Below, piece after piece: positions 5,226-31,816 of a stretch of 64,000 bases of DNA; the stretch's first letter is position 1; each line of letters starts with the position of its first letter. Origin of the DNA: Paracoccaceae bacterium (GTDB lineage: Bacteria; Pseudomonadota; Alphaproteobacteria; Rhodobacterales; Rhodobacteraceae); contig OY282431.1 in assembly GCA_958296035.1 (NCBI GenBank), forward strand, positions 2,464,037 to 2,528,036. The letters run 5' to 3'. The position numbers and the translations under genes are program-made. The notes under the pieces were generated by a model. That model worked only from the letters and a program-made list of their open reading frames with translations, ran no database searches and had not been told where the DNA came from.

Positions 5226-5265
5226 TTAGTGTACTAACAAATAATGGGCACCACTGCTTTGTCAA
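5226..5265 (-). promoter_or_regulatory. fpr promoter with inverted-repeat operator
   Basis: The inverted repeat TTAGT-GT-ACTAA occupies 5226-5237. On the minus strand a perfect TTGACA (-35 type) occupies 5260-5265, 22 bases upstream of the repeat. A weak -10 (TATTTG or ATTTGT) lies at 16-17 base spacing next to the repeat. The identical 12-mer, also behind TTGACA, occurs at 31779-31790. A dimeric regulator of the MarR type, such as the one encoded at 22413-22874, is the natural candidate; this is inference. Confidence 0.6.
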
Positions 5266-5402
5266 GATGTGCACCGGCATCGAATCAGACAACCCGCTTG
5301 CGAACCCTGCCATTGGCATCAGACGTTTCCAACAAGTTTGACTTGTAGCCGATTGAGCCAATAGGGTTGTTACAACCGGGTCAGGGTGCGGGGTTGTTGC
5401 AA

Positions 5403-6413
5403 ATGATTGCCATTGGATTGATCGGTGCAGGACGAATAGGTGCCCTGCACGCCCGAAACATTGCCGAAAGTCGAAAAGTGGAGCTCTTGCTTGTCCACGA
5501 TGCGGACAATCTGCGGGCAGAGCGCGTTGCGTCGGATTGCGGGGCACGCGTCGCGGCAACTGCCGAAGAGGTTATCACCAACAGTGCCGTTCACGCCGTT
5601 GCCATCTGTTCCCCGACCGATACACATGTAGATCTTGTAAGTTCTGCCGCCGCCGCGGGGAAAGCAGTCTTTTGTGAGAAACCTCTTGACCTGGACCTCG
5701 TGCGAGCGACCTCCTGCCTGGACATTCTTGCTCGCCATCCAGTTCCGTTCACTATCGGATTCCACCGACGTTTCGACCCGCATCACCTTGAGCTGCGCAA
5801 CAGGGTGCAGAGCGGCACCATCGGTGATGTCGAGCAGATTCGAATCGTTTCGCGCGATCCGTCCCCGCCGCCAGTCGATTATGTTAGGCGGTCGGGAGGC
5901 ATTTTTCGGGATATGATGATTCATGACCTTGACCAGCTACGGTTCCTTTTGGGCAGGCGGGTCGTCGGTGTGTTTGCGCATGGCTCTGTCCTGGTGAACG
6001 CCGCGATCGGCGAGGCCGGTGATTTTGACACGGCCACGGCCGTGTTCTGGACTGAAGATGGGGCAACTGTAACAGTCCACAACAGCCGCCGCGCGAGTTA
6101 CGGGTTCGATCAGCGCATTGAAGTGTTTGGCTCGCGTGGATCAGTCTCAATGGATAATGTTCCGGCGACCCAGACTGTAATTGCTGACGCCGGTGGGTTC
6201 ACCGTGCCCAGAAATCCGGGCGCATTCCAGGAACGGTATGCCACAGCCTACAAGTACGAGATTGAGGCATTCGCTGCGACCCTTGAGGCGGGCGGGAGCC
6301 CTGAACCAACAGCATTTGATGGTGTAATGTCATTGGCCCTCGCAGATGCGGCTAATGCCTCCGCTCGCAGTGGCCAACCAGTGAACATCGAATATCCGCA
6401 CCTTCGCAAGTGA
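5403..6413 (+). CDS. iolG: Inositol 2-dehydrogenase-like oxidoreductase (Gfo/Idh/MocA)
   Basis: The predicted product is an NAD-dependent myo-inositol 2-dehydrogenase, oxidising inositol to scyllo-inosose. The N-terminal GLIGAGRIGALHARNI is the dinucleotide-binding fold. The catalytic Lys lies in FCEKPLDL (EKP at residues 92-94). GFHRRFDP and DMMIHDLDQLRFLLG (His174/Asp175) follow, then NSRRASYGFDQRIEVFGSRG, which is characteristic of IolG. The ATG at 5403 gives 336 residues. iolD lies 1.9 kb downstream, supporting the inositol assignment, although iolB, iolC and iolE are not in this window. Related enzymes oxidise scyllo- or chiro-inositol, so exact specificity is uncertain. Confidence 0.87.
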   Translation: MIAIGLIGAGRIGALHARNIAESRKVELLLVHDADNLRAERVASDCGARVAATAEEVITNSAVHAVAICSPTDTHVDLVSSAAAAGKAVFCEKPLDLDLVRATSCLDILARHPVPFTIGFHRRFDPHHLELRNRVQSGTIGDVEQIRIVSRDPSPPPVDYVRRSGGIFRDMMIHDLDQLRFLLGRRVVGVFAHGSVLVNAAIGEAGDFDTATAVFWTEDGATVTVHNSRRASYGFDQRIEVFGSRGSVSMDNVPATQTVIADAGGFTVPRNPGAFQERYATAYKYEIEAFAATLEAGGSPEPTAFDGVMSLALADAANASARSGQPVNIEYPHLRK

Positions 6414-6743
6414 ATACCCGCTCATGCAGGTCGGTGAATCCGGCAGACTTCGATGAACACTTATGGAGCGCAACACATTATTCGACCGTTCAGCGGCAAG
6501 TACAAGCCGCCCACCGGACACTTAAACATGGATTAGGCTGTACATGGCTGTATTAAGGGCCAGATAGGCTGCAACCGGATAGGCGCGGCACCGACAACAC
6601 GGCCAGTTATCGGTTGCGGGAGAACATGCTCCCGGAGCGGCATCAGGAGTCAGCGGCGGAGATCGCCCTTTGCGCTGGTAATGCCATAACACGATGCAGG
6701 ACTAACAAGAAAGCCGCCTCAATTGCCCTGACTACCAGCCCCA
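6414..6743. other. Gap downstream of iolG with no recognisable feature
   Basis: I see no gene, repeat or clear promoter here. The stretch leads into the decayed ATPase fragment and probably belongs to the material that separates iolG from iolD. Confidence 0.5.
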
Positions 6744-6761
6744 ATGACTGAGCGATCCATG

Positions 6762-7151
6762 GCTTACCCATTGCATCTACCTTCGCTTTCCGTCGAGGGT
6801 TTCCGGGGCATTAGTTCCCTTGAACTTGTTAACCTCGGCCGCATTACATTGCTGGCCGGGAAACACGGTGTCGGCAAGACCACCATCCTTGAGGCCATTA
6901 AGGTGTTCGCCTCCAGAGGCGATTACCGGACGCTTTCCGAACTTCTTCGTAAACGCGAGGAATTCGTTACAGGCAGAGACGAGGATGGTGATACAATTTA
7001 CTTCCCGGATCTTGCATCATTGTTTCACAACTATTGTCCTGGAGATGGAAACAATTCTCCGTCAGCCGGCAGGATGTCACAACTTACACCGAGTATTGAT
7101 TCGGTAGCGCCGCCACCCAACCTCACACAACCACCAGATCATGCGACTTGA
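6762..7151 (+). pseudogene. Truncated AAA-type (SMC/OLD-like) ATPase, N-terminal fragment
   Basis: The fragment starts LHLPSLSVEGFRGISSLELV and carries a Walker A motif, AGKHGVGKTTILEAIKVF. It is followed by the helix ASRGDYRTLSELLRKREEF, typical of AAA15/OLD-like ATPases that often act in defence or DNA repair. The frame ends after about 130 residues, whereas family members have 350 or more. A shifted frame stays open from 7141 to 7425 without recognisable Walker B or signature motifs. I infer a frameshifted, 3'-deleted gene, possibly once part of a mobile island inserted between iolG and iolD. The ATG at 6744 is an alternative start. Confidence 0.6.
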
Positions 7152-7421
7152 TCTGGATGAAAGCAATAATCCAGTGTACACCGCCCAAAAGCCACGATCC
7201 CGTTCATCCGCGTCGAACGTTGCCCCAACTGGCGAAGCCGCGCTTCCATTCACATTCGCCAATCATGAAATTTGGGAGTTTGAACTCGGAAGAAGTCACC
7301 TACGCATCTCACCAACCACCCCGGTATTATCGGAACATTCCGATAATGGTCATGAACAATGCACTCCCGGGTACGCCCGTTCCCGCATCCGGCTCATCTC
7401 CACCAATCGTGACGCAAGCAT

Positions 7422-7676
7422 TTAACCGCTGCTGCATATCCGTACCACGCGTTTGTCCCTGATCCGGTGCTCCCGGGTGCGGATCATCCATTCCCGGTCC
7501 ACTTGGTCAGGGAACCTGGCCATCTCGGTATCCACCACCCGGTTGATGCGCGGCTGCTCTATCCCGACCGCCCGCGCAGTAACGGCATCATGTGCACCTT
7601 GCTGTGATCGGAACGCGTAGCTGAAACCGAGGACCTCCCTCTCCAAGACTGGCTCCGGAATAGCCTTCGTTGACAC
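7422..7676 (-). pseudogene. Group II intron reverse transcriptase remnant
   Basis: The minus-strand reading EVLGFSYAFRSQQGAHDAV, then INRVVDTEMARFPDQVDREW, then MIRTREHRIRDKRVVRI, follows the finger/palm order of group II intron maturases (GFRPGRSAHDAL, WxxDADIxxFFD, LxRFLEHRIxDRR). It resembles the fragment at 53850-54420, where the corresponding segment reads AWMIRFLEHRIGDRRVVRL. The YADD catalytic box and both ends are missing. No intron domain V was recognised nearby. This is a non-functional relic. Confidence 0.6.
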
Positions 7677-8322
7677 TTTCTGGAGGATCTTGTCGTAGCG
7701 TGATGGCTAACCTTCTCCTTCTCGAGGCACTTTCTCGCGCAGTCCGAATACCGGTAGACCTGGCGCACTCTCCGTTGCCTTACAACCACCACCTTCCACA
7801 TGTGACACCGCCGATGCTCCAGCGTGAACAATTCTGTGAACTTGTCACTTGCTTCCTGACCCATTTGCGGCCCTCCCTAAAAACAGCAAGGTCGGCTCTG
7901 GCAGCCTCATTCTGCGAGACCCGCTCGACATTCACTCACATTCTGGCCCGTTAAGTGGCTTATCCGCCTTACGTATCGCTTTGATACGAAGGTGCATCGG
8001 CATACATCGGTACCACCACAAACCGCCTTGGCTGCTCCCTACCGACGCGACAATTGCTGCGTGGGACTTGCTAGCACAAGGTGGTTGCGTTTCTTACGCG
8101 GCCCGCTGTGACAGTCTTGTAGGGACCATGAATACCTGCCTCGGACGTTATGAAGGGGACAACAGACTCGAACTACTCCGTTCGAATCTGTCGAGGTGGG
8201 GCAAGAAGAGGGAATTCCTGGCGCATGACCAAAATGGGCCCCAACCGATTGACAAGCGATAGGTAATTTTCAATTCAGGAATTCAGGCTGGTTCTTCGGA
8301 CACTCAATCAAGGGACAATACC
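7677..8322. other. Decayed region upstream of iolD
   Basis: There are several overlapping reading frames of 80-137 codons, none with a recognisable domain. The stretch is probably eroded mobile DNA continuing from the reverse transcriptase relic. The last 50-60 bases should include the leader of iolD; no clear promoter boxes were identified. Confidence 0.4.
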
Positions 8323-10218
8323 GTGAAATTCTATTCTGCTGAAAAGACCGAACGACTGACGCTGTCTCAAGCCATCGTCAAATATCTCCAGGTTCAGTAC
8401 AGTGAACATGACGGCGTGCAGCAAAGGCTTGTGCAGGGCATTTGGGGCATATTCGGGCACGGCAACGTGTCCGGCCTGAGCCAGGCACTGGTCGAGTATG
8501 GGCGAGATCTGCCCTACTTTCAGCCTGCCAACGAGCAATCCATGGTCCACGCTTCGACGGGTTTTGCACGCAGCATGCGGCGCAAGGCGACAATGGCCTG
8601 CACAACCTCGATCGGGCCGGGCGCAACCAACATGATCACCGGAGCAGCGACGGCGACAATTTGCCGCATTCCGGTGCTACTGTTGCCCTCCGACTATTAC
8701 GCCAACCGCTTTGGCGGGACGGTTCTGCAGGATATCGAGCACCTGACCTCGGACGACATGTCGGTCACGGATACATTTCGTGTCGTGAGCCGGTTTTTCG
8801 ACCGGGTCACGCGGCCCGAGCAGATACTGACCTCCCTGCCCGAGGCCATGCGCGTCATGACGTGTCCGGCCGAGACCGGAGCGGTGACGATTGCGCTTCC
8901 CCAGGACATTCAAGGCTATGCATTTGACTACCCGTCGAAGTTCTTTGCGCGACGTGTATGGAGGATCGAGCGTCCGCAGCCCGACCCGATGCGGATCAAG
9001 GAGGCAGCATTGGCACTGCGAGAAGCCGAGCGGCCGTATATCATTGCCGGCGGTGGCATCCACTATTCGGAGGCCTGGCGGGAACTTGCGGTGTTTTCGG
9101 AGAGGTTCGGCATTCCAGTAGGCGAGACCCATGCAGGGCGGGGGGCGCTGCGAGAGGATTCGAGCATTCTGCTGGGCGGCACAGGGCATCTGGGCACGCC
9201 GGCTGCGGCGCGGATTGCAGAGGAGGCCGATCTGGTATTTTGCATAGGCACGCGCCTGAAGGACTTCACAACAGGCTCCAATTCCGCCTTTCAGAACCCG
9301 GATGTGCAATTTGTTTCTGTGAACGTCAACGGCCGCGATGCCTACAAGCTGGGCGCGTTGCCGATTATGGCCGATGCCAAGCTGGCGCTGGCGGCGCTGG
9401 ACGAGGCGGCTGCAGAATTTGAGGTCGCGGTCAATCCGGCCTGGACTGCCCGGGCCAGGCAGCTGCGCGCCGATTGGGACGCAGTCAAGAGCACAAGGGT
9501 TTTTGTGCAGCGGCACAACGAGAAAGTCAGTCAGGGCCAGCTGGTCGGCATTCTGAACCAGGAAATGCAAGGTGGCGACACACTGGTTGCCGCTGCCGGA
9601 ACGATCCCGGCCGACCTGACCAAGCTGTTCGATGCCACAGGAGGGAAAAACGTTCACATCGAATTTGGCAATTCCTGCATGGGATACGACATTCCGGCCG
9701 CCATAGGTGTTTGCCAGGCGGGCGGCGACGGGGAGGTGCTGGTATTGATGGGTGACGGCAACTACCAGATGCATCCGATGGAGCTGGTCACGGCCATGCA
9801 GGAAGGCGTGAAGATCACGATCATTCTCAACGTGAACTACGGTTATCAATCAATCCACGGGCATCAAAAGGCGCTGGTAGGTCATTCGCTGGGCAACGAG
9901 TTCAGGATTAGGGACCAGGCGACGCGGTTGCTTGACGAGGGGCAGTTCATTGAGGTGGACTATGTGAAGAATGCCGAGAGCATAGGCTTGCGGGCGTGGC
10001 TGGCGGAAAGGGAGGAGGACATTGTCCAGGCGTTGCGAGAGGCGCGGGCCGAAAGCCGTTCATGTATGATCGTGGTTCCGACAGAGAAGTACCGTTTTCC
10101 ACCGGATTCGGGCGTCTGGTGGGAAGTTGTAGGAGCGGAGGTGACGAATGATCCGAAGACGAAGGCGCTCGTGGCAGAGCGTGAAGCGGGTCGTCGCAAA
10201 CAGCGACTGTACTATTGA
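8323..10218 (+). CDS. iolD: 3D-(3,5/4)-trihydroxycyclohexane-1,2-dione acylhydrolase IolD
   Basis: IolD is a thiamine diphosphate enzyme that opens the six-membered ring in myo-inositol breakdown, giving 5-deoxy-glucuronate. The 631 residues match the family length. The N-terminal TPP domain shows GIWGIFGHGNVSGLSQAL and the cofactor glutamate region NEQSMVHASTGFAR. The central domain has LVFCIGTRLKDFTTGSNSAF. The C-terminal TPP-binding motif is VLVLMGDGNYQMHPMELVTA to LNVNYGYQSIHGHQ (GDG near residue 478). The 8323 ATG follows a purine-rich stretch (AAGGGACAA). It lies in the same orientation as iolG but is separated from it by decayed DNA. Confidence 0.95.
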   Translation: MKFYSAEKTERLTLSQAIVKYLQVQYSEHDGVQQRLVQGIWGIFGHGNVSGLSQALVEYGRDLPYFQPANEQSMVHASTGFARSMRRKATMACTTSIGPGATNMITGAATATICRIPVLLLPSDYYANRFGGTVLQDIEHLTSDDMSVTDTFRVVSRFFDRVTRPEQILTSLPEAMRVMTCPAETGAVTIALPQDIQGYAFDYPSKFFARRVWRIERPQPDPMRIKEAALALREAERPYIIAGGGIHYSEAWRELAVFSERFGIPVGETHAGRGALREDSSILLGGTGHLGTPAAARIAEEADLVFCIGTRLKDFTTGSNSAFQNPDVQFVSVNVNGRDAYKLGALPIMADAKLALAALDEAAAEFEVAVNPAWTARARQLRADWDAVKSTRVFVQRHNEKVSQGQLVGILNQEMQGGDTLVAAAGTIPADLTKLFDATGGKNVHIEFGNSCMGYDIPAAIGVCQAGGDGEVLVLMGDGNYQMHPMELVTAMQEGVKITIILNVNYGYQSIHGHQKALVGHSLGNEFRIRDQATRLLDEGQFIEVDYVKNAESIGLRAWLAEREEDIVQALREARAESRSCMIVVPTEKYRFPPDSGVWWEVVGAEVTNDPKTKALVAEREAGRRKQRLYY

Positions 10219-10344
10219 CACCCGATCGAAGCACGACGTGTCGGCAATTGTCCGGCCCTTGCGATTCTGAAACGCTGGATACTTTGCTACTTTCAGCTCG
10301 GCAGATAGGTTGCCAATGAAGGACCTGGAGAGGAGGAGCTCATT

Positions 10345-11154: not shown

Positions 11155-11244
11155 TCATCACACATTGTACGCTTGCCTGGCGACGACGCCATGTGCGCGT
11201 AGCACCGAAACAAGGCTGAAGACAGGCCATACGGGGCCAGTTTC

Positions 11245-16477: not shown

Positions 16478-16488
16478 GTTTCTGTATG

Positions 16489-16512
16489 CTGCGAGGCTCC
16501 TGAGCCTCGCAG
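16489..16512 (+). terminator. Strong hairpin after the binding-protein gene
   Basis: CTGCGAGGCTC and GAGCCTCGCAG form a perfect 11-bp stem; a real loop requires opening the innermost pairs. It lies 11 bases after the stop codon. No U-run follows, so it may be a terminator or an mRNA-stabilising structure, as is common downstream of abundant binding-protein genes. Confidence 0.6.
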
Positions 16513-18202: not shown

Positions 18203-19378
18203 ATGACAAAGCCAACACGTAAACTGGTGATCAGGAATATTGGTCTGATGCTGTCCGGCAAGCTGGAGCAGCCGATCCTTGATGGCAATTGCGTGGTTGC
18301 AATTGACGGCAAGATTGCCGAATTCGGTTGTGAGGCAGACCTGGACACCGGAGCTCCGGACACCCTTATTGATGCTAACGGCGTTGCCTTGTGTCCCGGC
18401 TTGATCGACAGCCATGTTCATCCGGTAGTAGGAGATTACACGCCCCGTCAACAACAGTTGCACTGGATAGACTCGACCCTGAACGGCGGTGTGACCACAA
18501 TGATTTCCGCCGGCGAAGTACACATGCCCGGGCGACCAAAGGACATCGTCGGTCTCAAGGCAATGGCAATTGCATCACAACGCTGGTACGAAAATTTTCG
18601 GCCCTCCGGAGTCAAGGTTCTGGCAGGTGCGCCCGTCATCGAGCATGGCATGGTCGAACAGGATTTCAAGGACCTGGCTGATGCCGGCGTAAGACTGCTC
18701 GGCGAAGTCGGGCTTGGTTCGGTCAAGGACGGGCCGACCGCATCCCGGATGGTTGGCTGGGCCAGGAAATACGGCATTCAAAGCACCATTCATACCGGGG
18801 GGCCCTCAATTCCGGGATCTGGCCTGATCGACAAGGACATTGTGCTCGAAGCCAATACAGACGTTATCGGGCATATCAATGGCGGTCACTCGGCCCTTCC
18901 AGACGATCAGATCGTTTGCCTCTGTGAAAGCTGCCAACGAAGTCTGGAGATCGTCCACAATGGCAATGAGCGTGCAGCTCTCCTGACGCTGAATACTGCA
19001 CGCGAACTTGAACAGCTCGAGAGAATAATTCTTGGAACCGATGGTCCGGCCGGATCCGGCGTGCAACCACTAGGCATCTTGCGGATGATCGCCATGCTTT
19101 CCAGTCTTGGCAATGTGCCGGCCGAGACCGCCTTCTGCTTTGCAACCGGAAACACGGCGCGCATGCGCAGCCTTGATACCGGCCTTGTAGAAGAAGGCTA
19201 TTGCGCTGATTTCGTGCTGATGGATCAGGCACAGCACGCACCAGGCAAGACGCTGCTGGATTCGGTCGGTCAGGGAAACCTGCCCGGCGTCGGCATGACT
19301 GTTATCGACGGTGAGGTCAGAACCCTGCGTAGCCGTAACACTCCACCAGCCGAACGACTGCCAGGTGTTTCCGGCTAG
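18203..19378 (+). CDS. ena: Enamidase (1,4,5,6-tetrahydro-6-oxonicotinate hydrolase)-like amidohydrolase
   Basis: Enamidase hydrolyses 1,4,5,6-tetrahydro-6-oxonicotinate to 2-formylglutarate and ammonia in the nicotinate pathway described in Eubacterium barkeri. The 391-residue sequence follows that family closely: NIGLMLSGKLEQPIL, then GLIDSHVHP (metal His71/His73), and VVGDYTPRQQQLHWIDS. It continues with GGVTTMISAGEVHMPGRPKD, GVRLLGEVGLGSVKDG (Glu168), IHTGG (His197), VIGHINGG (His224) and ILGTDGPAGSG (Asp280), ending in RSRNTPPAERLPG. The surrounding 6-hydroxynicotinate reductase-like and molybdenum-hydroxylase genes support the assignment. Related amidohydrolases could act on other cyclic enamides. 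Confidence 0.86.
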   Translation: MTKPTRKLVIRNIGLMLSGKLEQPILDGNCVVAIDGKIAEFGCEADLDTGAPDTLIDANGVALCPGLIDSHVHPVVGDYTPRQQQLHWIDSTLNGGVTTMISAGEVHMPGRPKDIVGLKAMAIASQRWYENFRPSGVKVLAGAPVIEHGMVEQDFKDLADAGVRLLGEVGLGSVKDGPTASRMVGWARKYGIQSTIHTGGPSIPGSGLIDKDIVLEANTDVIGHINGGHSALPDDQIVCLCESCQRSLEIVHNGNERAALLTLNTARELEQLERIILGTDGPAGSGVQPLGILRMIAMLSSLGNVPAETAFCFATGNTARMRSLDTGLVEEGYCADFVLMDQAQHAPGKTLLDSVGQGNLPGVGMTVIDGEVRTLRSRNTPPAERLPGVSG

Positions 19379-22412: not shown

Positions 22413-22874
22413 TCAGACGACCCGCTTGAGCAGGTTCTGAATTGTCCTTTGTTCATCACCGGACAATGGTTCCAGCGTCTGTGCTGTAATCTCGTGGCCA
22501 ATCCGCTTGAGGTCGTCGATCACCTCGGCTCCTGTGCTTGACAATACTATGACTCTCTGGCGTCGATCAGCCGGATTCTCCCTCAGGCCAACCAGCCCTT
22601 TGGCCAGCAATCGATCGACAACGCCCTTTATGGTTGCGACATCCATGTGCGCCCGGCGACCAAGGTCGTTTTGGGAACACCCACCAGTCTCGCTCAAGCG
22701 AATCATGGCAGAAAACTGCGTGGGGGTCAGATCGAGCCCCATTCGCTGGTGGAATATGGAAAGATGACGCTGACTGGCCAGCCGCAAAAGATAACCAAAC
22801 TGGTCATCAAGTATATAGGGCACGTCTTTTTCGGGCTGCACAACGTCTTTCGCTGCCTGCCTATCACCGCTCAA
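22413..22874 (-). CDS. MarR family transcriptional regulator (NicR-like)
   Basis: This is a 153-residue winged-helix repressor. Core segments are FGYLLRLASQRHLSIFHQRM, DLTPTQFSAMIRLSETGGCSQNDLG, the recognition helix MDVATIKGVVDRLLAKGLV and the wing NPADRRQRVIVLSSTG. The arrangement recalls NicR of Pseudomonas and BpsR of Bordetella, which control nicotinate catabolism in response to 6-hydroxynicotinate; this similarity is from memory, not an alignment. It sits inside the catabolic region, just downstream of the DUF1185 pair on the same strand. It is the best local candidate to bind the TTAGT-GT-ACTAA repeats at 5226-5237 and 31779-31790. Confidence 0.88.
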   Translation of the reverse strand: MSGDRQAAKDVVQPEKDVPYILDDQFGYLLRLASQRHLSIFHQRMGLDLTPTQFSAMIRLSETGGCSQNDLGRRAHMDVATIKGVVDRLLAKGLVGLRENPADRRQRVIVLSSTGAEVIDDLKRIGHEITAQTLEPLSGDEQRTIQNLLKRVV

Positions 22875-22962
22875 CGTGCATTTCCCGGTCGCGGCCCGCA
22901 GTCTTCAGCTTGATCAGGTGACATGTCCAGATGTCCGGCAGTTCGACCTGCAATTGTAACTG

Positions 22963-23547
22963 CTACCGCAATCCGTCTTCTCCCTTCATGTCGTCGACCG
23001 TCAGGCCTCCCACTCGGGGCAACGGCCTTCCGCTGTCGGTAATTGCCACTGCCACAACAATCTCATTGGCGCGTGGGGCATCATTGATTCTGATTTCCAT
23101 GCCGTCGAAGTGCGACCGAACGTAGGCGGCATCCTTGTGGCCAAGTGGAATGTCCAGAACTTGCCCCATGCAGCCTATCTTCTTGGTAGAGGGAACAAGG
23201 GCTGCGCCCCCGGACACAGCCCTGCGCAAAGGTGCTCCCAGCTTCGGGTGCAGGATTGCAGCGGCATGTTCCAGCTCTCCGTTTTCGCCGACCATCGCAG
23301 ACTTGCCGTAACTGTGCGCTTCTTCCGGGGCTATACCGAGGGCTGCGACGCATTGCTGCCCGAGCATTCCGCCCAACTCCGCACCGATCTCCATAAGTAC
23401 CGACAGGTCCCCCACGAACTTTCCCGCAAAGGGATTGTCGATGACTGCTGCGGCTGCAGCTCGGCGGGTGGGTGGTTCAACCGCCTGGCCCGCTTCCCAG
23501 CGCGTTTCTTCAAGCCATACACAGGTTTTGCGAATTTCTGCTTTCAC
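22963..23547 (-). CDS. DUF1185 (amino acid synthesis family) protein, copy 2
   Basis: This 194-residue protein belongs to Pfam AA_synth (DUF1185). A crystal structure of a Bordetella member shows a variant chorismate-mutase-type fold, but no reaction is established. Conserved stretches are AAAAAVIDNPFAGKFVGDL, SYGKSAMVGENGELEHAAA, ALVPSTKKIGCMGQVLDIPL and AAYVRSHFDGMEIRINDAPR, then NEIVVAVAITDSGRPLPRVGG. The ATG overlaps the stop of the upstream paralogue (ATGA), so the two are translationally coupled and probably form a heteromer. Co-occurrence with the 6-hydroxynicotinate reductase-like gene suggests a step in N-heterocycle degradation. Confidence 0.85.
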   Translation of the reverse strand: MKAEIRKTCVWLEETRWEAGQAVEPPTRRAAAAAVIDNPFAGKFVGDLSVLMEIGAELGGMLGQQCVAALGIAPEEAHSYGKSAMVGENGELEHAAAILHPKLGAPLRRAVSGGAALVPSTKKIGCMGQVLDIPLGHKDAAYVRSHFDGMEIRINDAPRANEIVVAVAITDSGRPLPRVGGLTVDDMKGEDGLR

Positions 23548-24146
23548 CTCAATCCATCCTTTCCCTCGATATCTGCCGCTGCCAGTCCCAGTGCCCGGTC
23601 ATGAATTCTAGGCCCCGTGCCCATAGCAATTATCAGGCATATCTCATTGCGACGGGGACTGTCATTGCAACTGACTTCGATAGTATCGAAATGGCTACGC
23701 ACATAGGCGGCGTTGATATGGGCAAGCGGGACGTCAAGCCTAGTGCCGGGCATACCTACTTTCTTTGTGGAAGGCACGATTGCCCTGGCATTGCCGAGGA
23801 GCTCTCGCATAGCGTACCCTCCGGGTGCGTGCCACAACGCACCGTGCTCGATTTCACCTTCGGCACCGACAATGGCTCCTTTGCCATATGACTCAATTTC
23901 GGCCGGGTTTCCTCCCAGGGCATTGATCATCCGTCTTGCCATCAGCAATCCGAGCGGTTTCAACTCGTCCATGAATGGCGCAATCTCGTCAACAAATCGC
24001 CTCGCGAAAGGATTTTCGATGACTGCCAGGGTTGCGCCCTTGCGAAGCGGGATCTCTGGCCGCGGTCCACCCTCGTGCAATATTGTTTCGACCCGCGAAA
24101 TCAGTTTGCGTATGCGAGGTATGTCTGTCATCCCCTTGCCATCCAT
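23544..24146 (-). CDS. DUF1185 (amino acid synthesis family) protein, copy 1
   Basis: This paralogue of the following gene has 200 residues from ATG 24146, or 195 from ATG 24131. The upstream start has GAAAGG at about 4 bases and is slightly favoured. It shares the family pattern ATLAVIENPFARRFVDEI, SYGKGAIVGAEGEIEHGA, AIVPSTKKVGMPGTRLDVPL, AAYVRSHFDTIEVSCNDSPR and NEICLIIAMGTGPRIHDR. The two copies differ most in the N-terminal 60 residues and around the middle. Tandem duplication followed by divergence, or a two-subunit enzyme, are both possible. Function is unknown. Confidence 0.83.
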   Translation of the reverse strand: MDGKGMTDIPRIRKLISRVETILHEGGPRPEIPLRKGATLAVIENPFARRFVDEIAPFMDELKPLGLLMARRMINALGGNPAEIESYGKGAIVGAEGEIEHGALWHAPGGYAMRELLGNARAIVPSTKKVGMPGTRLDVPLAHINAAYVRSHFDTIEVSCNDSPRRNEICLIIAMGTGPRIHDRALGLAAADIEGKDGLR

Positions 24147-25049
24147 TTTGCCTTTCTTATCCGGTCGAACGGCGTGCCCGGCTGCTTGCCAGGATTCCCG
24201 GTGCGCGCCGCGATCGTACGGGCGGCGGTCGCCCGCCAAAGGCGCAAACAAGAAACGACTTTCGCAGGGACCTATCACAAATTGACAAATCCGGCGTTGT
24301 TGTCGCTATGTCCCAAATCAGGGCTGTCAGCGTCCAATCAATTGCCTGAGTTCGAATGAGCCTGGCATTCGGGCTTGGGCTGAGTACCCGACCGACCGTA
24401 AATCTGCAATGCCACCTCTGGTCCTGAAGGCCCTCAACAAAGCAACATTCCAGTTGAATGCCGCACTGGGAGACGCCGCGGGGCTGCTCGCGAATGACTT
24501 CTTCGATGGAGCGGATGAACCTGCCAATCGGAAACGACGCTCCAGGTATCCAGTCAACATGCTGTGTATTTACCCAAATACCCAATCCACGGTTCACGGG
24601 TAATTGCGGCGAATGTCCGTCCCTCCTCGGCCGCCTGGGCGTCAGTGTAATGACTTCTCTCCCTGTCCAGTGGATTCCAGCATGTCCATGACACTCGAGA
24701 AGGCACTGGCCGCATTGACCGCCAGGACAATGCCTCGCTCAAGCGCAGGTCCGAGAAACGGATGTACGACAGTCCAGAGCAGGGCCCCGATATGTTCGAG
24801 GCCGGCGGCGTTGATTCCGGCAGCACCGCCTCGCCATCATCGGATGATGACCAGCAGGATGACGACCAGTCGGCCTGTGCCTGTCAGCAAGGGCAGAAAA
24901 ACTGTCAGATAGGCCTCGACAAATGGTCAAGAATCGGGTGTCCTCCACGCCACATTACTAACCAGATGGCGACCCGAACGGACGCCATGACTTTGCAAGG
25001 CGGTGCTCCCGATGAGGCCATCGCAACTTGATGCCGAACTGTGCAACAT
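24147..25049. other. Decayed region between DUF1185 genes and a Panacea-domain relic
   Basis: No intact gene was found. On the minus strand around 24650-24830 a frame reads LLWTVVHPFLGPALERGIVL, which looks like former coding sequence but was not identified. This block interrupts what would otherwise be a continuous catabolic operon from 31.8 to 22.9 kb. Confidence 0.4.
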
Positions 25050-25267
25050 CTATGGCAGGCCGCCACCCGACAGCGCCGAGGCCACAATTCCAGGCCTCTG
25101 CGAACTCGTCGGCAAACAACGGATCTTCACGAATTGCCAGATGCCAACCGTGCGCGATGTACACCAGCTTCTGGATCTTGAGCGGCGAAATGCCACTTTC
25201 CCCCGTACTTCTTCAGAAAGCAATTGGCGACGGCCTTTGCAGAATAGCCCACGATAGTCTTGTGCAT
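25050..25267 (-). pseudogene. Frameshifted Panacea-domain (SocA/DUF4065-like) antitoxin fragment
   Basis: From ATG 25267 one frame reads GYSAKAVANCFLKKYGGK, and a second frame then continues ISPLKIQKLVYIAHGWHL and AIREDPLFADEFAEAWNCG. Together these rebuild the start of a Panacea-type protein (pattern YSAxxVANxFL, then SPLKLQKLxYxAHGWxLA, then LFxExxxAWxxGPV). The single frameshift and the loss of everything after AWNCG mark it as a dead gene. Such antitoxins normally sit beside diverse toxins; none is recognisable here. Confidence 0.6.
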
Positions 25268-25723
25268 TATGACCGGCTCGCAGGTCAAGGCGTGACAGAG
25301 CCGTCGGGGCCGCCGCAGTGCTCACAGGTGGAGCAGTCAGGGGTTTCCGAACCCGTTAAGACCCTGCCGGGTTAGTACCAGTGACTACGCCTTCCCTCCT
25401 TTATACCCTCTTTCGAAGTCAAATTCCTTCTCTCCACCGGCATGAACCGGCTACTCCTGTATACCGAGCATGTCCCGCCTCCCGGCCGGTGCCAAGGCCC
25501 ATATGTACACGGTTCAGACTCTGCGCGAAGACTATAGACTACGACGATGTGTGTAATTTACTTCCGGCTTGCGCAGGATGGACGGCAGCCGAACCTGAGG
25601 GTGCGTGCTGCTGGGCCTGAGGCTATCCTGGCCTTGACAGGCATCCCGCTGTGCTGGAAAAAGTGCTCACAGCGATCATACTGCCGTGAACTGGAGGGCA
25701 TTACAGGCTCGCGCCAGCGCCAA
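25268..25723. other. Gap without recognisable gene
   Basis: No coding region, repeat or regulatory site was identified between the Panacea relic and the end of the UPF0280 gene. Confidence 0.4.
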
Positions 25724-26638
25724 CTAGTGTGTCATGGCCAAGGCGGCATTGACCCGTTGTGATCGGGCGCCAAGGTGAAACAGGCGATCGGCATTCATAT
25801 CGACGGCACAGACAGTTTGAAATTCGCTTTTCAAGAACAGCGCGGCAGCATTTATGTGTCCGTCATCAACCATATTCTGCGCTACAGCCCTACCCCGTTC
25901 AAGTGCCGATTCAACGTCTTCAATCTCCAATACACCACAGCCGACAACCACCTTGCGGTGTCCCAGATCCGTTGTTTCGTCTAGCCGGCGAGCAGAAACA
26001 CGCCTGACCGCAGGATGCCCAGGAAGGTCTACCGCATTGGCGATCAATGTTGCCGCAACATCAGCCTGCGCTGCCGAGCTGGCGAGCACGGTAACCGAAT
26101 CGGCAATGCCAAGCGTCATGCTCTTCCCGCCCCTGCCGCTTGTTGCGATACCACCCACGCCATCCATTGCCGACACCTGGACCCTGGCCAGCTCCTGGTT
26201 CGAAAGATTGCGGACGCTGACACGACATGTCCTCTCGCCCCGCACATGCAACGCAATATCTCCCCCGTTGTTCACCATGATCTTGTCTATTCGAACATGG
26301 CGCATCACGCAGGCCAACACCTCGTCGGCGACCGCGCCGGCGACCGCAGCCATCGGGGTCACAAATGCAAGGTCGGCAAACACTTTTGCTGCTAAGTGCA
26401 TGCGACGCGCCACCGGTCCTTTCGGAACAGCGACTTTCGATGAAACTGGAGCCTTCAGTATTGGAAGTTCAGACACAAGCTCGGACAACAAGGTACCAAA
26501 CCGTTGTGTTGCAACAAACTCGGCCGCTCTTCGATCCCTTTGGTCAGCGGTTTCAAGTGAAAGGACAAGATTGATTGGCCCATGCTGGAGCAACAGTCGG
26601 CCGTCTGCCAGCTTGTTGCAGAGTGCCGTGCCTGCCAT
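25724..26638 (-). CDS. UPF0280 family protein (ApbE-like fold)
   Basis: This 304-residue protein belongs to UPF0280, whose fold is related to the flavin transferase ApbE; no biochemical function is established. Segments seen are GPINLVLSLETADQRDRRAA, FVTPMAAVAGAVADEVLACV, VNNGGDIALHVRGERTCRV, GIATSGRGGKSMTLGIADSV and ANAVDLPGHPAVRRVSA. The frame is open far upstream inside the reductase gene, but the ATG at 26638 starts one base after the reductase stop and gives the expected length. The ApbE-like fold, and the flavin expected in the neighbouring reductase, make a flavinylation or cofactor-handling role worth testing. Confidence 0.85.
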   Translation of the reverse strand: MAGTALCNKLADGRLLLQHGPINLVLSLETADQRDRRAAEFVATQRFGTLLSELVSELPILKAPVSSKVAVPKGPVARRMHLAAKVFADLAFVTPMAAVAGAVADEVLACVMRHVRIDKIMVNNGGDIALHVRGERTCRVSVRNLSNQELARVQVSAMDGVGGIATSGRGGKSMTLGIADSVTVLASSAAQADVAATLIANAVDLPGHPAVRRVSARRLDETTDLGHRKVVVGCGVLEIEDVESALERGRAVAQNMVDDGHINAAALFLKSEFQTVCAVDMNADRLFHLGARSQRVNAALAMTH

Positions 26639-26639
26639 T

Positions 26640-28136
26640 TCAGCTCGAATCGCTCCTGGCCCACGAAAAGTTCTGGTGACTGGCGGGATCAGGAGAGTGC
26701 TCTGCGGTTGCAATCCTGCGGATATCTGAATGCATGACACTGTCCAGCGGCTGTACTGCATCGACATGCCCGCCAAGGCTTTCGTAGTCGGAATGTCTGA
26801 GTGTGAATTCAATCGGGGCCACCAAGGCCGGCGTCGGTACGTAACCAAACGAATTGGCAGGCATGTCCAGAACGTCAACCATGAGCGTAATGCCGCCACC
26901 CGGCCAAATGTATGTCTGGGCTCCTCCGCAGCTGACATAGGTCAGTGCTCTCCGTACAGAATGCGTCAGCCTGACCGGGTTGTCAGTGACCCCGGCGCGC
27001 AAGGATCCTCCAGCGCCCGCCATAAAGAGAACCGAACAGGTTGAAGGCTCGCAATTTTCGGCGATGCGTTTGGCACTCTCGAGGAGTGGAGTTGAGATTT
27101 CTGCCGGTTTTGGCAGCAAGTCATCATCAAGCACAAAGTAGGCCCACTGCTCCCCGGTGGTCGACACCATCAGGAGACGCAAACCTGCCCAGGCATACCG
27201 CCTGTCGATACGCTTTACTATGTCCAGCGGGTCTTTGACGTTGGTACCGCCCCAACCCGTCCCCGGTTCGGCAACCTGGAAATAGCGGCCCGGTGTCGAC
27301 CGGCGACCCGAAACGCGAATTCCTGCCAGCGGCATGCCTAGCTGCTTTCCTGCCTCATGTTCCGTCAGCACGCCGGTGATATGATCGTCTACAACAATGA
27401 CTTCGTCGACATGGGGTTGCCACTGACGAGCAAACATGCCGATTGCTGCAGAGCCACAGCCAACCCGCATCAGTCTTTCCCTCTCTCCGTCGATAATCGG
27501 CGGTTGGCCTGCCTGTATAACCAGGTCGGCACCCTCGTCGATTTGCAGCTCCACTGCCTCACCGTTGCACAGATCAAGAAGCGTGTCGCAGGTTACGCGT
27601 CCCTCTTTCTTTGAGCCACCGGTCAAGTGATCCACACCGCCGAGGGACAACATCTTCGAACCATATTCACTGGTGGTGACATGGCCCACTGACTCGCCCT
27701 GGGCACAGATCTGGGCGCGTTCTGCCCCCACGTGACGATCAGTGTCTATCTTTACCTTGGCACCGCAGTAACTAAAGATGCCCTCGGTGACTACCGTCAC
27801 CATGTCTACACCTTCAACTTCCTGACTGACTATGAACGGCGCCGGTTTGTAATCGGGATAGGTGGTTCCGGCCCCGATTGCTGTAACGAAGGGACGTTCC
27901 CTGCCCACAATCCTGCCGTCCCAATCCGGATCTTCGCCAACCGGAAGAAACGGAACAGCCTGTCCGCCCTTGTTGCCTACAGCCTCGATCACCGTCAGCG
28001 GATCAAGCCGAACCAATTTGCCGTCTTGATTGGCGTATCGATCACATGCCCCGGACCGCCCCTCGGCAATATAGCACATGACGGGACATGCATCGCATCT
28101 GATCTTCGGTGGCCTGGTTCTTTTCCTAACGGTCAT
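26640..28136 (-). CDS. hnr: 6-hydroxynicotinate reductase-like iron-sulfur protein
   Basis: The family reduces 6-hydroxynicotinate to 1,4,5,6-tetrahydro-6-oxonicotinate with ferredoxin electrons in the Eubacterium barkeri pathway. The 498-residue protein opens with a cysteine cluster, RCDACPVMCYIAEG then GACDRYAN (Cys14, Cys17, Cys21, Cys31), typical of an iron-sulfur centre. Other segments are LVRLDPLTVIEA, FIVSQEVEGVDMVTVVTEG, YCGAKVKIDTDRHVGAERA, VTTSEYGSKMLSLGGVDHLT and TPGRYFQVAEPGTGWGGTNV. The ATG at 28136 follows AGGAA at 8 bases and overlaps the hydroxylase stop by 11 bases. The product would be the substrate of the enamidase at 18.2 kb. Electrons could come from NADPH through Fpr (4321-5154), whose promoter shares an operator with this operon. 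Activity on a related azaarene is possible. Confidence 0.85.
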   Translation of the reverse strand: MTVRKRTRPPKIRCDACPVMCYIAEGRSGACDRYANQDGKLVRLDPLTVIEAVGNKGGQAVPFLPVGEDPDWDGRIVGRERPFVTAIGAGTTYPDYKPAPFIVSQEVEGVDMVTVVTEGIFSYCGAKVKIDTDRHVGAERAQICAQGESVGHVTTSEYGSKMLSLGGVDHLTGGSKKEGRVTCDTLLDLCNGEAVELQIDEGADLVIQAGQPPIIDGERERLMRVGCGSAAIGMFARQWQPHVDEVIVVDDHITGVLTEHEAGKQLGMPLAGIRVSGRRSTPGRYFQVAEPGTGWGGTNVKDPLDIVKRIDRRYAWAGLRLLMVSTTGEQWAYFVLDDDLLPKPAEISTPLLESAKRIAENCEPSTCSVLFMAGAGGSLRAGVTDNPVRLTHSVRRALTYVSCGGAQTYIWPGGGITLMVDVLDMPANSFGYVPTPALVAPIEFTLRHSDYESLGGHVDAVQPLDSVMHSDIRRIATAEHSPDPASHQNFSWARSDSS

Positions 28137-30882
28137 CTGCACTGTTCCTGATAGCCGCCATTATTCGGGCAGGAGTGGCAGGCAATTGCCGGATTCGGAC
28201 GCCGCAGGCGTGGTGAATGGCGTTTAGAATGGCTGGTGCCGTCGGGATCAGTACGTGCTCTCCCAACCCTTTGGCTCCCAGTGGTCCGTGGGCATCGGGC
28301 TCTTCGACAATTATGGTCTCGACTGGCGGCATGTCACCGATTGTCGGGATAAGATAATCGTGGAGGTTATCTGTCACGCCGGGAACGAAATCTTCCATCA
28401 AGGCCATTCCCAGACCCTGCGCAATGCCGCCGTGAATCTGCCCTTCGACCAGCGTCGGGTTGATGGCCTTCCCAACATCATGGGCAGCAACAAAGCGCAC
28501 AGCTGAAACCGTCCCAAGACTTGTATCTACATCGACTGTGGCAATCTGCGCCGCGTAACCAAACTGTGCGTATGGTTCTCCCTGCCCGTTTTCGTCCAGG
28601 TTCGTAGTCGGGGGACTGTAGGTCTCACAGGCAACAAAAACATATCCTGACTCATTTGCGGACACTGTAGCCAGGTCCAGCCGGCGCCTGTCACCTGAGT
28701 CCTTCACCTCAATCCAGTTGCCATCGATCGACAGGCAAGCGTCCTCTCCCGCGTTGAGGGCGCGTGTGATTTGCCGACGAAGCGCAAGCGCACACAATCT
28801 GGCAGCATTGCCGGAAATATAGGTTTGACGCGAGGCAGAGGTTTTTCCAGCATCAGGTGTTTCGTCGGTGTCGGCCCCGACAAGTCGAATATCGGCATTC
28901 TCGATCGCCAGGGCATTGGCAAAGATCTGAGTAATCACCGTATCCGATCCCTGACCGATATCAATGGCGCCCTGATGCAGAACCACCGTACCGTCGGACC
29001 GAATTCCCGCCTTGTATGTTGACGGGTTGGGAAGAGCCGTGTTGCCACATCCATACCAGGCCGCCGCCAATCCGACCCCCCGCCTTGTCGAATCCTGTCG
29101 GCGGACCCGCGCTGCATTGATACTTGCGGCCTCATTTCTGGCAGATGTCCAGTGCTCCCGAACTGCTTGCAGGCAGGCTTTGATACCAACACCTGTTTCA
29201 AAAACCTGGCCACAAACCGTTGGCGCGCCATTGGTCAGGCAATTGCGCAACCTGAACTCAAGTGGATCCATACCAATCTTGTTGGCCAATTCATCGATCG
29301 CTGTTTCCAGTGCAGCAGCCGACTGCGGGACTCCGAATCCGCGGAATGCTCCCGCCGGAACGCGATGCGTATGAACGGCGTGTGAGGTCGCAAGGTAGTC
29401 CTTGACTGCGTAGGGCCCCGAAGCATGAACCGGAACCCGGCTAATGACAGCAGGCCCCCAGGAAGAATAGGCACCGGTATCGAATTTGCCGTTATACTTG
29501 AGCCCCGAAATCTGTCCGTCACGCGTAGCACCCACTCTAAGCGATATTCTTGCGGGGTGCCGTTTGGTTGTCGACCGCATCGACTCGGAACGGGAATAAC
29601 ACAGGCGCACGGTCTTTCCTGTCCTGAGCGCCGCCAGTGCCAGATAGGGCTGAACCGACAAATCCAGTTTCGAACCAAACCCGCCGCCTACAGCGGTTGG
29701 AACAACTCTGATCCGGTCGGTGGACATGGCAAGGATTTCGGAGAGTGAGTCGAGGTCCAAATAGGCGGACTGTGTCCCCGCGTGCACAGACAGCCTGCCA
29801 TTCTCAACTCGGGCAAATCCTGCTTCGGGTTCTATATAGGCGTGCTCCACGAACGATGTCCTAAAGCTGCTGCTTACGGTCGCTGCGGCCGCGGCCAATG
29901 CCCTGTCGGCGTCGCCGGTACGCACCTTCCCGCGACAAAGCGTGTTGCGGGCCCGTGTCTGGTGCAACTGTGGTGCTCGAACCATCAACGCGTGTTCGAT
30001 ATCAGTAACGGCCTGCCGTTTGTGCCAGGTAACTGGAAATTCTTCGCTGTCGAACCACCACATCGTATCGGGCTCGCCAACGACCGCCGCCACCGCTTCA
30101 CCGACAAAGCGGGCTTCACCTTCGGCAAATACCGGCTGATCGACGAATTGCGGAAAAATTCCAAAACTGTTTCTGCCGGGCACATCTTCGGCCGTCAGCA
30201 CACAGGCAATCCCTTCATGGCTGGCCACGAACCTGTCGAGGTCACCAAACCGAAAGGAAGTTCTTGCGTGGGGTGAACGGATGACTTTTACGACCAGCGC
30301 ATTGGCAGGAGCGGCATCATCGCCAAAGACTTCTTCGCCCGTGATCTTCCGCTCGCCGTCGATGCGATTCATACGGACTCCCGGACTGGCCCATTCGGCA
30401 CTGGAAGGAGGCAGGCCTCCGGTCTTCCGGGCATGATGCACAGCGTCAAGAATCTTGCGGTATCCCGTGCAGCGGCACAGGACGCCGCCAAGCGCATCCT
30501 GAATCGAGTCTTCGTCTCTTTCAAGACCGTTTGTGGAAATCGCTGTAGCCGAGACCAGCATGCCGGGCGTACAGATTCCACACTGTGCAGCTCCTCCGAG
30601 ATGGAATGATCTGGCTAACCGCGCGGCATCGCGATTTCGGGCAACCAGTCCAGAGCTTGTTTCCACATGCCGGCCGCTGACCTGAAAGGACAGTGTGAGG
30701 CAGGCACAAACAGGCTTGCCATCCAGTAGCACCGTGCAGGCACCGCAATCGCCAGCATTGCAACCGATCTTGACATCGCGTTGCAAGAGCCGCTCTCGCA
30801 ATGATTCAGAAAGACGCTCGGCGGCCCGCACGCCGGGCGCAACCACGTCCTGTCCGTTAAGTGTAAACCGCAGCTGGTTCAT
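28126..30882 (-). CDS. Molybdenum hydroxylase, fused [2Fe-2S] and molybdopterin subunits (nicotinate/xanthine dehydrogenase type)
   Basis: This 918-residue xanthine-oxidase-family protein joins the small iron-sulfur subunit to the large molybdopterin subunit. Residues 1-160 carry the plant-type cluster CNAGDCGACTVLLDG (Cys41, 46, 49, 61) and the second cluster CGICTPGML and CRCTGYRKI (Cys101, 104, 136, 138). From about residue 170 the Mo domain shows VEHAYIEPEAGFA, PTAVGGGFGSKLDLS, VPAGAFRGFGVPQ, DIGQGSDTV and the active-site glutamate near GPLGAKGLGE. The ATG at 30882 overlaps the FAD-subunit stop (ATGA). Together they would hydroxylate an N-heteroaromatic ring, most simply nicotinate to 6-hydroxynicotinate given the next gene. 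E. barkeri uses separate subunits, so the fusion is notable. No XdhC-like maturation gene is in the window. Confidence 0.88.
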   Translation of the reverse strand: MNQLRFTLNGQDVVAPGVRAAERLSESLRERLLQRDVKIGCNAGDCGACTVLLDGKPVCACLTLSFQVSGRHVETSSGLVARNRDAARLARSFHLGGAAQCGICTPGMLVSATAISTNGLERDEDSIQDALGGVLCRCTGYRKILDAVHHARKTGGLPPSSAEWASPGVRMNRIDGERKITGEEVFGDDAAPANALVVKVIRSPHARTSFRFGDLDRFVASHEGIACVLTAEDVPGRNSFGIFPQFVDQPVFAEGEARFVGEAVAAVVGEPDTMWWFDSEEFPVTWHKRQAVTDIEHALMVRAPQLHQTRARNTLCRGKVRTGDADRALAAAAATVSSSFRTSFVEHAYIEPEAGFARVENGRLSVHAGTQSAYLDLDSLSEILAMSTDRIRVVPTAVGGGFGSKLDLSVQPYLALAALRTGKTVRLCYSRSESMRSTTKRHPARISLRVGATRDGQISGLKYNGKFDTGAYSSWGPAVISRVPVHASGPYAVKDYLATSHAVHTHRVPAGAFRGFGVPQSAAALETAIDELANKIGMDPLEFRLRNCLTNGAPTVCGQVFETGVGIKACLQAVREHWTSARNEAASINAARVRRQDSTRRGVGLAAAWYGCGNTALPNPSTYKAGIRSDGTVVLHQGAIDIGQGSDTVITQIFANALAIENADIRLVGADTDETPDAGKTSASRQTYISGNAARLCALALRRQITRALNAGEDACLSIDGNWIEVKDSGDRRRLDLATVSANESGYVFVACETYSPPTTNLDENGQGEPYAQFGYAAQIATVDVDTSLGTVSAVRFVAAHDVGKAINPTLVEGQIHGGIAQGLGMALMEDFVPGVTDNLHDYLIPTIGDMPPVETIIVEEPDAHGPLGAKGLGEHVLIPTAPAILNAIHHACGVRIRQLPATPARIMAAIRNSADDR

Positions 30883-31775
30883 TCTGCCCGCATCAACCGC
30901 TGGTGCCCAGGTCCATCGAGAACCCTGTCTGCAGCTTTCAGGACTGCCTGTCGACACAATTCCGCCGCCGCGTGCAAGCGATAGCCTGCCGGTCCGCGCA
31001 CATCATCGATCGGTGAAAGGCAGTTCATATGCCGTGTGCTAACCTTCAGGGTTGTGGCAAGAGATTCTGCCGGCAATCCCAGCAGCCCTGCCTCCAGACC
31101 TTCCATTCTCTTTGCAACAGGCGAGCACGCACCGACTGCAATTCTGGCGTCATTAATCAATCCAGCCCGATCGATCCCGATGACAGCCGCTGCCATGGCA
31201 ATCGAAATTACCAGGTATTTTCGGCTGCCAAGCTTGACAAAACTGCTTCCATGCCTGTCTGATAAAGCCGGCACGAGTACGGCCGTTACAAGATCTCCAG
31301 GCTGCAGCACTGTCCTTCTCACGCCGGTCAGGAAGTCGCCCAGGGTCACGAGTCTTGCTGTCTCCTGGTTCCTGATTTCCAGCCTCGCATCCAGGGCCAG
31401 CAACGGCGGCACACCGTCTGCAGCGGGAGATGCATTGCAGATGTTGCCTGCAATTGTGCCGGAATTCTGAATCTGGACCGATCCGACTTCACGGGCGGCG
31501 AGTTTCAGGCCGTCGAAATACTCTGGAAAGGGATACTTGAGAATCTCCGACCAGGTTGCGGTCGCACCAATTCGCCACATGCCATCGACGAAGCGGATAT
31601 CTGAAAGTCCGTGGACCCTGGTAATATCGACAAGGCGGCCGACGCTGCTTCCCTGTCGAAGGGCGGGCAGGAAGTCCGTACAGCCGGCCACAATCCTGTA
31701 GTCGCCATTCAACTGCGAAGTCGCATCTGCGAGTGTGGATGGGCAAATGTATTTCAACTGCAATACCCGGGTCAA
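30879..31775 (-). CDS. Molybdenum hydroxylase FAD-binding subunit
   Basis: This is the medium FAD subunit of the xanthine-oxidase family (CoxM/NdhF type), about 298 residues. It carries the FAD-binding motifs RIVAGCTDFLPALRQG and NSGTIAGNICNASPAADG, then VPPLLALDARLEIRN and VKLGSRKYLVISIAMAAAVI. Its likely role is to pass electrons from the iron-sulfur clusters to NAD or another acceptor. The start is uncertain: TTG codons at 31775, 31763 and 31757 are candidates and no ATG precedes the conserved region. The first overlaps the operator palindrome, so one of the later two may be real. It heads the operon FAD subunit - fused FeS/Mo subunit - reductase - UPF0280. Confidence 0.87.
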   Translation of the reverse strand: MTRVLQLKYICPSTLADATSQLNGDYRIVAGCTDFLPALRQGSSVGRLVDITRVHGLSDIRFVDGMWRIGATATWSEILKYPFPEYFDGLKLAAREVGSVQIQNSGTIAGNICNASPAADGVPPLLALDARLEIRNQETARLVTLGDFLTGVRRTVLQPGDLVTAVLVPALSDRHGSSFVKLGSRKYLVISIAMAAAVIGIDRAGLINDARIAVGACSPVAKRMEGLEAGLLGLPAESLATTLKVSTRHMNCLSPIDDVRGPAGYRLHAAAELCRQAVLKAADRVLDGPGHQRLMRAE

Positions 31776-31816
31776 TTGTTAGTGTACTAATAATTGGCGT
31801 GACCATTGACTGTCAA
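31773..31816 (-). promoter_or_regulatory. Promoter and palindromic operator of the hydroxylase/reductase operon
   Basis: On the minus strand TTGACA (31811-31816) is followed after 17 bases by TTATTA (31788-31793), a near-consensus -35/-10 pair. The -10 box lies in a 24-bp palindrome (31773-31796) with arms CAATTGTTAGT and ACTAATAATTG around GT; 10 of 11 arm positions pair. The inner 12-mer is identical to the one before fpr. A repressor bound here would cover the -10 and start site. The transcript would have a very short leader, fitting a TTG start close by. Confidence 0.7.

Follow-up and report, generated by a model that had tools for sequence, protein, structure and literature searches.

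Where do the electrons for reducing the nicotinate ring come from, and is their supply switched on together with the enzymes that need it? In Eubacterium the electron donor of 6-hydroxynicotinate reductase is ferredoxin, and in Eubacterium barkeri reduced ferredoxin is provided by fermentation enzymes and is not known to come from a ferredoxin--NADP(+) reductase (Fpr). The question is raised here by a 64,000-nucleotide stretch of the genome of a Paracoccaceae bacterium (assembly GCA_958296035.1, contig OY282431.1, positions 2,464,037 to 2,528,036), hereafter the window, in which one short palindrome stands before fpr and again, 26 kb away, before an operon that encodes a molybdenum hydroxylase and 6-hydroxynicotinate reductase (hnr). 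The palindrome is kept at both genes in related bacteria, and its occurrence is tied to that of a MarR-family regulator encoded in the hydroxylase operon. We propose, with a probability of roughly three in four, that both sites are operators of one small reductive-nicotinate regulon in which MarR would keep the two promoters repressed as long as 6-hydroxynicotinate is absent, and would thereby couple the supply of electrons to the reduction of the ring. A first-pass annotation of the window had suggested a regulon of this kind; the suggestion gains support from the lack of any other exact copy in the genome and from the pairing of the two sites in relatives, and the electron flow itself we infer.

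The 12-base repeat TTAGTGTACTAA occurs at 5226-5237 (site 1) and 31779-31790 (site 2), two matches in the window where 100 shuffles gave 0.02 on average, and no further match is present within the window when up to two mismatches are allowed. On the minus strand a perfect TTGACA lies 22 bases upstream of site 1 and 20 bases upstream of site 2, and both sites head minus-strand genes, fpr in the first case and the hydroxylase FAD subunit (moM) in the second. Site 2 sits in a 24-bp palindrome (31773-31796) with 10 of 12 positions paired and a -10 box inside it, and the 24 bp surrounding site 1 pair at 8 of 12. In all these particulars, i.e., the positions of the repeat, the distances to TTGACA, the near-perfect palindrome over the -10 box and the genes headed, the first-pass annotation proved exact.

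It had also called for a genome-wide scan for TTAGT-N2-ACTAA, and in the single contig of 3,644,635 bases the pattern is found at two places, both of which are the window sites. The longer degenerate palindrome WTYRTTNGYRYRCNAAYRAW likewise fits exactly at these two sites only. One mismatch adds a single place, within a helicase-like reading frame, which was dismissed as a further operator because it is intragenic; two mismatches add 26 more, of which 12 are copies of one dispersed repeat and 14 are others, and the backwards control of this palindrome is found at 5 places at up to two mismatches. The dispersed repeat, TTCGTCTGGATACCAACGAA, has 12 copies in the genome, one of them at C1:3133-3152, outside the window. 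Since the backwards control of TTAGT-N2-ACTAA itself occurs at 5 places in the genome, rarity alone is weak evidence, and the case must rest on conservation.

For this purpose 126 stretches from relatives were fetched and gene-mapped. After 10 stretches of one batch and 9 duplicates had been dropped, 107 remained, which together with the window gave 108 scored loci, taken from the top of the match lists and not as a random sample. Matches to hnr were seen in 142 genomes; scoring covered 81 hnr loci including the window, and counts refer to the 72 of these whose moM promoter could be read. A symmetric 20-bp matrix was learned from these 72 hydroxylase promoters (59 used), with the consensus ATCGTTTGTATACAAACGAT. 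Dinucleotide shuffles served as the null, because random windows from the same loci had proved to contain true sites; 8 of 4290 shuffles reach 15 bits, with a maximum of 19.5, and 15 bits was set as the site threshold. The window fpr site, which lies outside the training set, scores 24.9 bits and so exceeds every shuffle.

Sites at or above the threshold precede moM in 57 of 72 promoters, a figure that is not independent of training, and they precede fpr in 17 of 43 and the enamidase gene in 20 of 28, neither of which was trained on as such. They are also found before hnr (10/81) and marR (12/41), and inside the operon the counts are 0/80 for the UPF0280 gene, 0/73 for the fused hydroxylase subunit (moL), and 0/64 and 1/66 for the amino acid synthesis family genes aasB and aasA. 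Some sites counted for fpr or for the enamidase coincide with that of a divergent moM or with one another; in genomes G294 and G250, for example, fpr is divergent from moM. In a second set, 82 titled plasmid and genome loci that partly overlap the family set, include Rhizobium mongolense from outside the family as well as many metagenome bins, and hold one contig twice (L228, L229), a site precedes moM in 62 of 69 testable promoters. The strict repeat tells a narrower story. One genome of the same genus (G003) has exactly two copies of TTAGTGTACTAA, each heading the ortholog of one of the two window operons; TTAGT-N2-ACTAA occurs in 20 of 61 genomes searched and lies away from hnr and fpr except in G000, the genome of the window, and G003, so that the wider conservation becomes visible only with the degenerate palindrome. 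What one would ask of a shared regulon, a common operator at both promoters that is kept in relatives, is present.

Promoter architecture points to a repressor. TTGACA (at least 5 of 6 letters) lies upstream of the operator in 52 of the 57 moM promoters, compared with 11 of 57 on the opposite strand, and exactly 35 bases from the operator centre in 26 of these 52; the corresponding distances in the window are 32 at moM and 34 at fpr. With this spacing at moM the operator covers the -10 box and the start, as is expected of a repressor site. At the enamidase gene TTGACA is found in 9 of 20 promoters and on the opposite strand in 16 of 20, which is what a divergent fpr or moM would lead one to expect.

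Which protein might read the operator is suggested by the distribution of MarR. In the 394 family genomes hnr and MarR occur together in 108, hnr alone in 27, MarR alone in 10 and neither in 249, and in the 72 genomes with testable promoters, where MarR was sought genome-wide, the moM operator is present in 57 of 60 with MarR and in none of 12 without. The titled set agrees, with a moM site in all 55 loci that have MarR in the fetched stretch, and in 9 fetched loci where MarR is divergent from moM the site lies between them in 8. At fpr, where the rows are best matches, the operator is found in 17 of 23 genomes with hnr and MarR (the window included), in none of 8 with hnr but no MarR, and in none of 12 without hnr. 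Five of the six misses (G011, G018, G027, G035 and G134) lie on the other side of the fpr tree, and the sixth is G016. The 78 proteins of this tree split into 56, of which 38 have operator-bearing genes, and 22, of which 1 does (branch support of the split 87/82, not starred; midpoint root).

The MarR protein of the window, which the first-pass annotation had named as the candidate regulator, carries a winged-helix domain (PF01047, 49.8 bits; cut-off 24.6) and has the PDB relatives 2NNN (E 4e-33), 6PCP (3e-21) and 6PCO (5e-21). We take the latter two to be structures of BpsR. This fits the residue numbering in PMC6837509, in the available text of which BpsR contacts 6-hydroxynicotinate via Tyr15, His23, Arg26 and His32, and ligand binding prevents DNA binding. 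The window protein keeps Tyr15, Arg26 and His32 as Y20, R31 and H37, with Tyr28 in place of His23. Among 97 distinct MarRs of these loci Tyr15 is kept in 95, Arg26 in 97 and His32 in 95, and the His23 position holds Tyr in 48, Phe in 44 and His in 5. As the His23 contact is missing we file the protein as BpsR-like and not as BpsR, and because the contacts are otherwise largely kept, 6-hydroxynicotinate or a close analogue is proposed as the inducer. The candidacy of this MarR has thus been strengthened, both by its tie to the moM operator and by its likeness to a 6-hydroxynicotinate sensor.

That fpr belongs with the pathway is suggested by gene neighbourhood. In at least 13 family genomes besides the window, picked by eye among the matches listed, fpr and hnr share a contig and are 0.14-10.2 kb apart; fpr adjoins hnr in G294 and G250, with gaps of 140 and 153 bases, and stands between the enamidase and the hydroxylase in other relatives. 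On plasmid pDSM110277_c of Sulfitobacter pontiacus a divergent enamidase gene is followed by ferredoxin--NADP reductase, hydroxylase, hnr, UPF0280, two AA_synth proteins and MarR; two sites, scoring 28.0 and 16.2 bits, precede fpr, and one of 19.4 bits precedes the hydroxylase. In the titled set fpr is within the stretch in 28 of 82 loci, 23 of these with a site. The earlier reading of Fpr as electron supply finds its support here, because fpr adjoins hnr in relatives, and remains a prediction from gene order. In one of the 13 linked genomes, G022 (L075), hnr is degraded by several stops, the adjacent fpr lacks the operator and MarR has no match, a state that looks like decay of the pathway.

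Taken together, we suggest the following sequence of events. MarR would bind a 20-bp palindrome that lies across the -10 region and the start, at the hydroxylase/hnr operon as well as at fpr, and in the bound state block RNA polymerase at both promoters. Once nicotinate has been hydroxylated, the resulting 6-hydroxynicotinate would bind the repressor and free both promoters. Fpr would then reduce ferredoxin with NADPH, ferredoxin would feed 6-hydroxynicotinate reductase, and the enamidase would open the reduced ring. The features on which this scheme draws are collected in Table 1.

Table 1. Operators, promoter elements and pathway genes in the window, in window coordinates.
Feature	Coordinates	Strand	Remarks
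fpr, ferredoxin--NADP(+) reductase, 277 aa	4321..5154	-	FNR-type domains; ATG at 5154 after GGAGGA ribosome site
Operator 1, 20-bp palindrome TTTGTTAGTACACTAATGAA (predicted)	5222..5241	-	24.9 bits; matrix trained on hydroxylase promoters only
-35 box TTGACA, fpr promoter	5260..5265	-	read from sequence
Enamidase-like amidohydrolase	18203..19378	+	PDB 2VUN enamidase, E 2.6e-101
MarR-family regulator, proposed repressor of both promoters	22413..22874	-	Pfam MarR, E 3e-13
aasA, amino acid synthesis family protein A (PF06684)	22963..23547	-	E 5e-71; PDB 2QTP E 7.6e-95, uncharacterised
aasB, amino acid synthesis family protein B (PF06684)	23544..24278	-	E 4e-67
UPF0280 protein	25724..26938	-	NCBIfam PRK04334 E 1e-99; conserved part from about residue 106; operon member in relatives
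hnr, 6-hydroxynicotinate reductase	26640..28142	-	60-71% identity to 26 plasmid places
moL, molybdenum hydroxylase, fused [2Fe-2S]/molybdopterin subunit	28126..30957	-	Pfam Fer2_2, MoCoBD_1/2
moM, molybdenum hydroxylase, FAD subunit	30879..31757	-	Pfam FAD_binding_5, E 4e-40; likely start codon TTG at 31757
Operator 2, 20-bp palindrome ATTATTAGTACACTAACAAT (predicted)	31775..31794	-	26.2 bits; promoter part of the training set
-10 box TTATTA within operator 2	31788..31793	-	17-base spacer to TTGACA; read from sequence
-35 box TTGACA, hydroxylase promoter	31811..31816	-	read from sequence

The operon behind site 2 runs from the FAD subunit through the fused iron-sulphur/molybdopterin subunit, hnr, UPF0280 and the two AA_synth proteins to the MarR gene. 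A molybdenum hydroxylase, hnr and an enamidase together make up the gene set of the reductive nicotinate pathway, which the window genes are accordingly predicted to encode; 2VUN is the only PDB match of the amidohydrolase at E 1e-5. The best PDB matches of moL are aldehyde oxidoreductases (E 8.5e-100), with nicotinate dehydrogenase 3HRD lower (E 1.3e-68), so nicotinate as its substrate is inferred from the operon, whose context makes it a presumed nicotinate hydroxylase. The hnr product has no match above cut-off in NCBIfam or Pfam and none of weight in the PDB; 17 of its 26 plasmid matches are annotated as 6-hydroxynicotinate reductase, 3 as hypothetical, and 6 are without annotation. Between UPF0280 and aasB, ahead of the MarR gene, about 1.4 kb of the operon (24300-25700) gave no Pfam match in the three frames tested; in the mapped relatives aasB or aasA follows close behind the UPF0280 gene, and the stretch is probably an insertion or a product of decay. 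The PF06684 proteins (22963-24278) and the UPF0280 protein (with a weak ApbE match) recur in the nicotinate operon of relatives. Elsewhere in the window, a plus-strand row at 55066-60969 of a TerB-domain protein, a BrxC/BrxD ATPase (PF10923, E 9e-144) and a DEAD-box helicase looks like an anti-phage defence module.

Several observations weigh against the regulon as proposed. Fpr matches NCBIfam PRK10926 at E 9.5e-36 but with 123 bits, where the curated equivalog cut-off is 390. It has the FNR-type FAD- and NAD-binding domains (Pfam FAD_binding_6, PF00970, and NAD_binding_1, PF00175, above cut-off) and a relative annotated as ferredoxin--NADP reductase in the Sulfitobacter operon, and we call it Fpr-like on the strength of domains and neighbourhood. 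The genome has 16 PF00037 ferredoxin-domain matches, none of them in the window, in a search that did not extend to 2Fe-2S ferredoxins. Of 17 fpr promoters, 11 have TTGACA, at distances that scatter, and 3 have it on the opposite strand, and on the fpr tree the operator label needs 9 gains or losses, compared with a shuffled mean of 26.2, so it is clustered, yet has been gained or lost repeatedly and not in one clean event. Control of the window enamidase by the shared operator was considered and rejected, as its promoter has no site (score -5.8); that of G003 scores -0.6, and yet 20 of 28 scored enamidase promoters have one. Three genomes with MarR lack the moM operator, namely G298 (no site), G333 (12.6 bits) and G018, where a sub-threshold variant palindrome is seen by eye before the first operon gene. 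Relatedness weakens the association between MarR and operator, because it yields few phylogenetically independent contrasts, 8 on all branches and 3 on well-supported ones, of which a mean of 2.8 run in the expected direction and none in the opposite, a number that cannot reach significance. Lastly, four genomes of the same genus (G001, G006, G007 and G008; L088-L092) keep operon, enamidase and fpr without a MarR match or an operator, which makes the coupling dispensable and its control not essential to the pathway; their operons are either controlled differently or constitutive.

There are also rival explanations. The operator might be real and shared, and bound by another regulator encoded elsewhere, with the MarR gene a mere neighbour. 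MarR binding is itself a prediction, and in the titled set the site is still present in 7 of the 14 testable operons whose fetched stretch holds no MarR. In that set, however, the search for MarR covered the fetched stretch only (about 10 kb or to the contig end), whereas the contrast of 57 of 60 with 0 of 12 comes from genome-wide searches, and the position of the site in 8 of 9 divergent MarR/moM pairs also speaks for MarR, so that we regard another regulator as very unlikely. Chance recurrence of a 12-base palindrome would be in keeping with the five backwards copies but would hardly explain why this pair of genes keeps the operator in relatives and also beyond the family, and we give it next to no credence. 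Site 1 lies between fpr and a divergent inositol dehydrogenase gene, iolG (5367-6413, plus strand), and could serve that gene or both directions more than fpr. Its TTGACA points toward fpr, however, the site is at least 125 bp from iolG, and in relatives (e.g., Sulfitobacter, G012 and G415) the mapped neighbour opposite fpr is the enamidase, with the site present there too; control of iolG appears even less probable than an alternative regulator.

A different concern is what Fpr does once induced. It might be co-regulated for another reason, such as the general redox or NADPH balance of a cell that uses nicotinate, and not feed hnr at all. The window fpr is the sole fpr match detected in its genome, and G002 and G004, of the same genus, have fpr without an hnr match, so Fpr has other work to do. 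Against this stand the short gaps to hnr in G294 and G250, the location between enamidase and hydroxylase elsewhere, and the use of ferredoxin as donor by the Eubacterium enzyme; we consider such a role, without any contribution to ring reduction, unlikely. The opposite extreme, that the operon-type Fpr is a dedicated donor specialised toward 6-hydroxynicotinate reductase, docking directly or via one fixed carrier, and is now the only Fpr of the window genome, is a tentative idea that we would doubt at present. The regulon of fpr and the hydroxylase/hnr operon under MarR remains the reading we prefer.

Parts of this picture are already known, namely the reductive gene cluster and the repression of nicotinate genes by BpsR and NicR. 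BpsR of Bordetella bronchiseptica resembles the window regulator in its MarR fold, its sequence (E 3e-21), three of four ligand contacts and its guarding of nicotinate breakdown genes, and differs in the residue at His23, in guarding the oxidative nic pathway and in that no fpr is named for it in the available text (PMC6837509). NicR of Pseudomonas putida is also a MarR-type repressor of nicotinate genes (PMC6837509, PMC10269826), although the BpsR contacts to 6-hydroxynicotinate are not conserved in it (PMC6837509). In the reductive clusters of Azorhizobium caulinodans and Bradyrhizobiaceae SG-6C, hnr is accompanied by genes for the first three steps, by a transporter and by two unknown genes, and the accessible part of the report names neither fpr, operator nor regulator (PMC3511419). 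As far as these sources go, 6-hydroxynicotinate reduction followed by enamidase defines the reductive route, and E. barkeri, an anaerobe, shares both steps in its nicotinate fermentation (PMC3511419, PMC9304392; PDB 2VUN). In the literature searched, from which subscription journals were mostly absent, no title or abstract puts fpr in a nicotinate regulon, the texts naming both 6-hydroxynicotinate and ferredoxin draw no link between them in the parts available, and neither this operator nor the inclusion of fpr in such a regulon was found.

The low-potential electron source for ring reduction in the reductive route is not stated in the portions of the literature examined, and a conserved operator that links hnr with an NADPH-ferredoxin reductase would be a specific and testable answer. 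It would also give an operator motif for a BpsR-like sensor, the precise DNA site of BpsR itself being called unclear in the available text of PMC6837509, and would offer a way into the regulon in those family genomes, 108 of 394, where hnr and MarR occur together. That the pairing of both operons is kept in related bacteria suggests how they power ring reduction.

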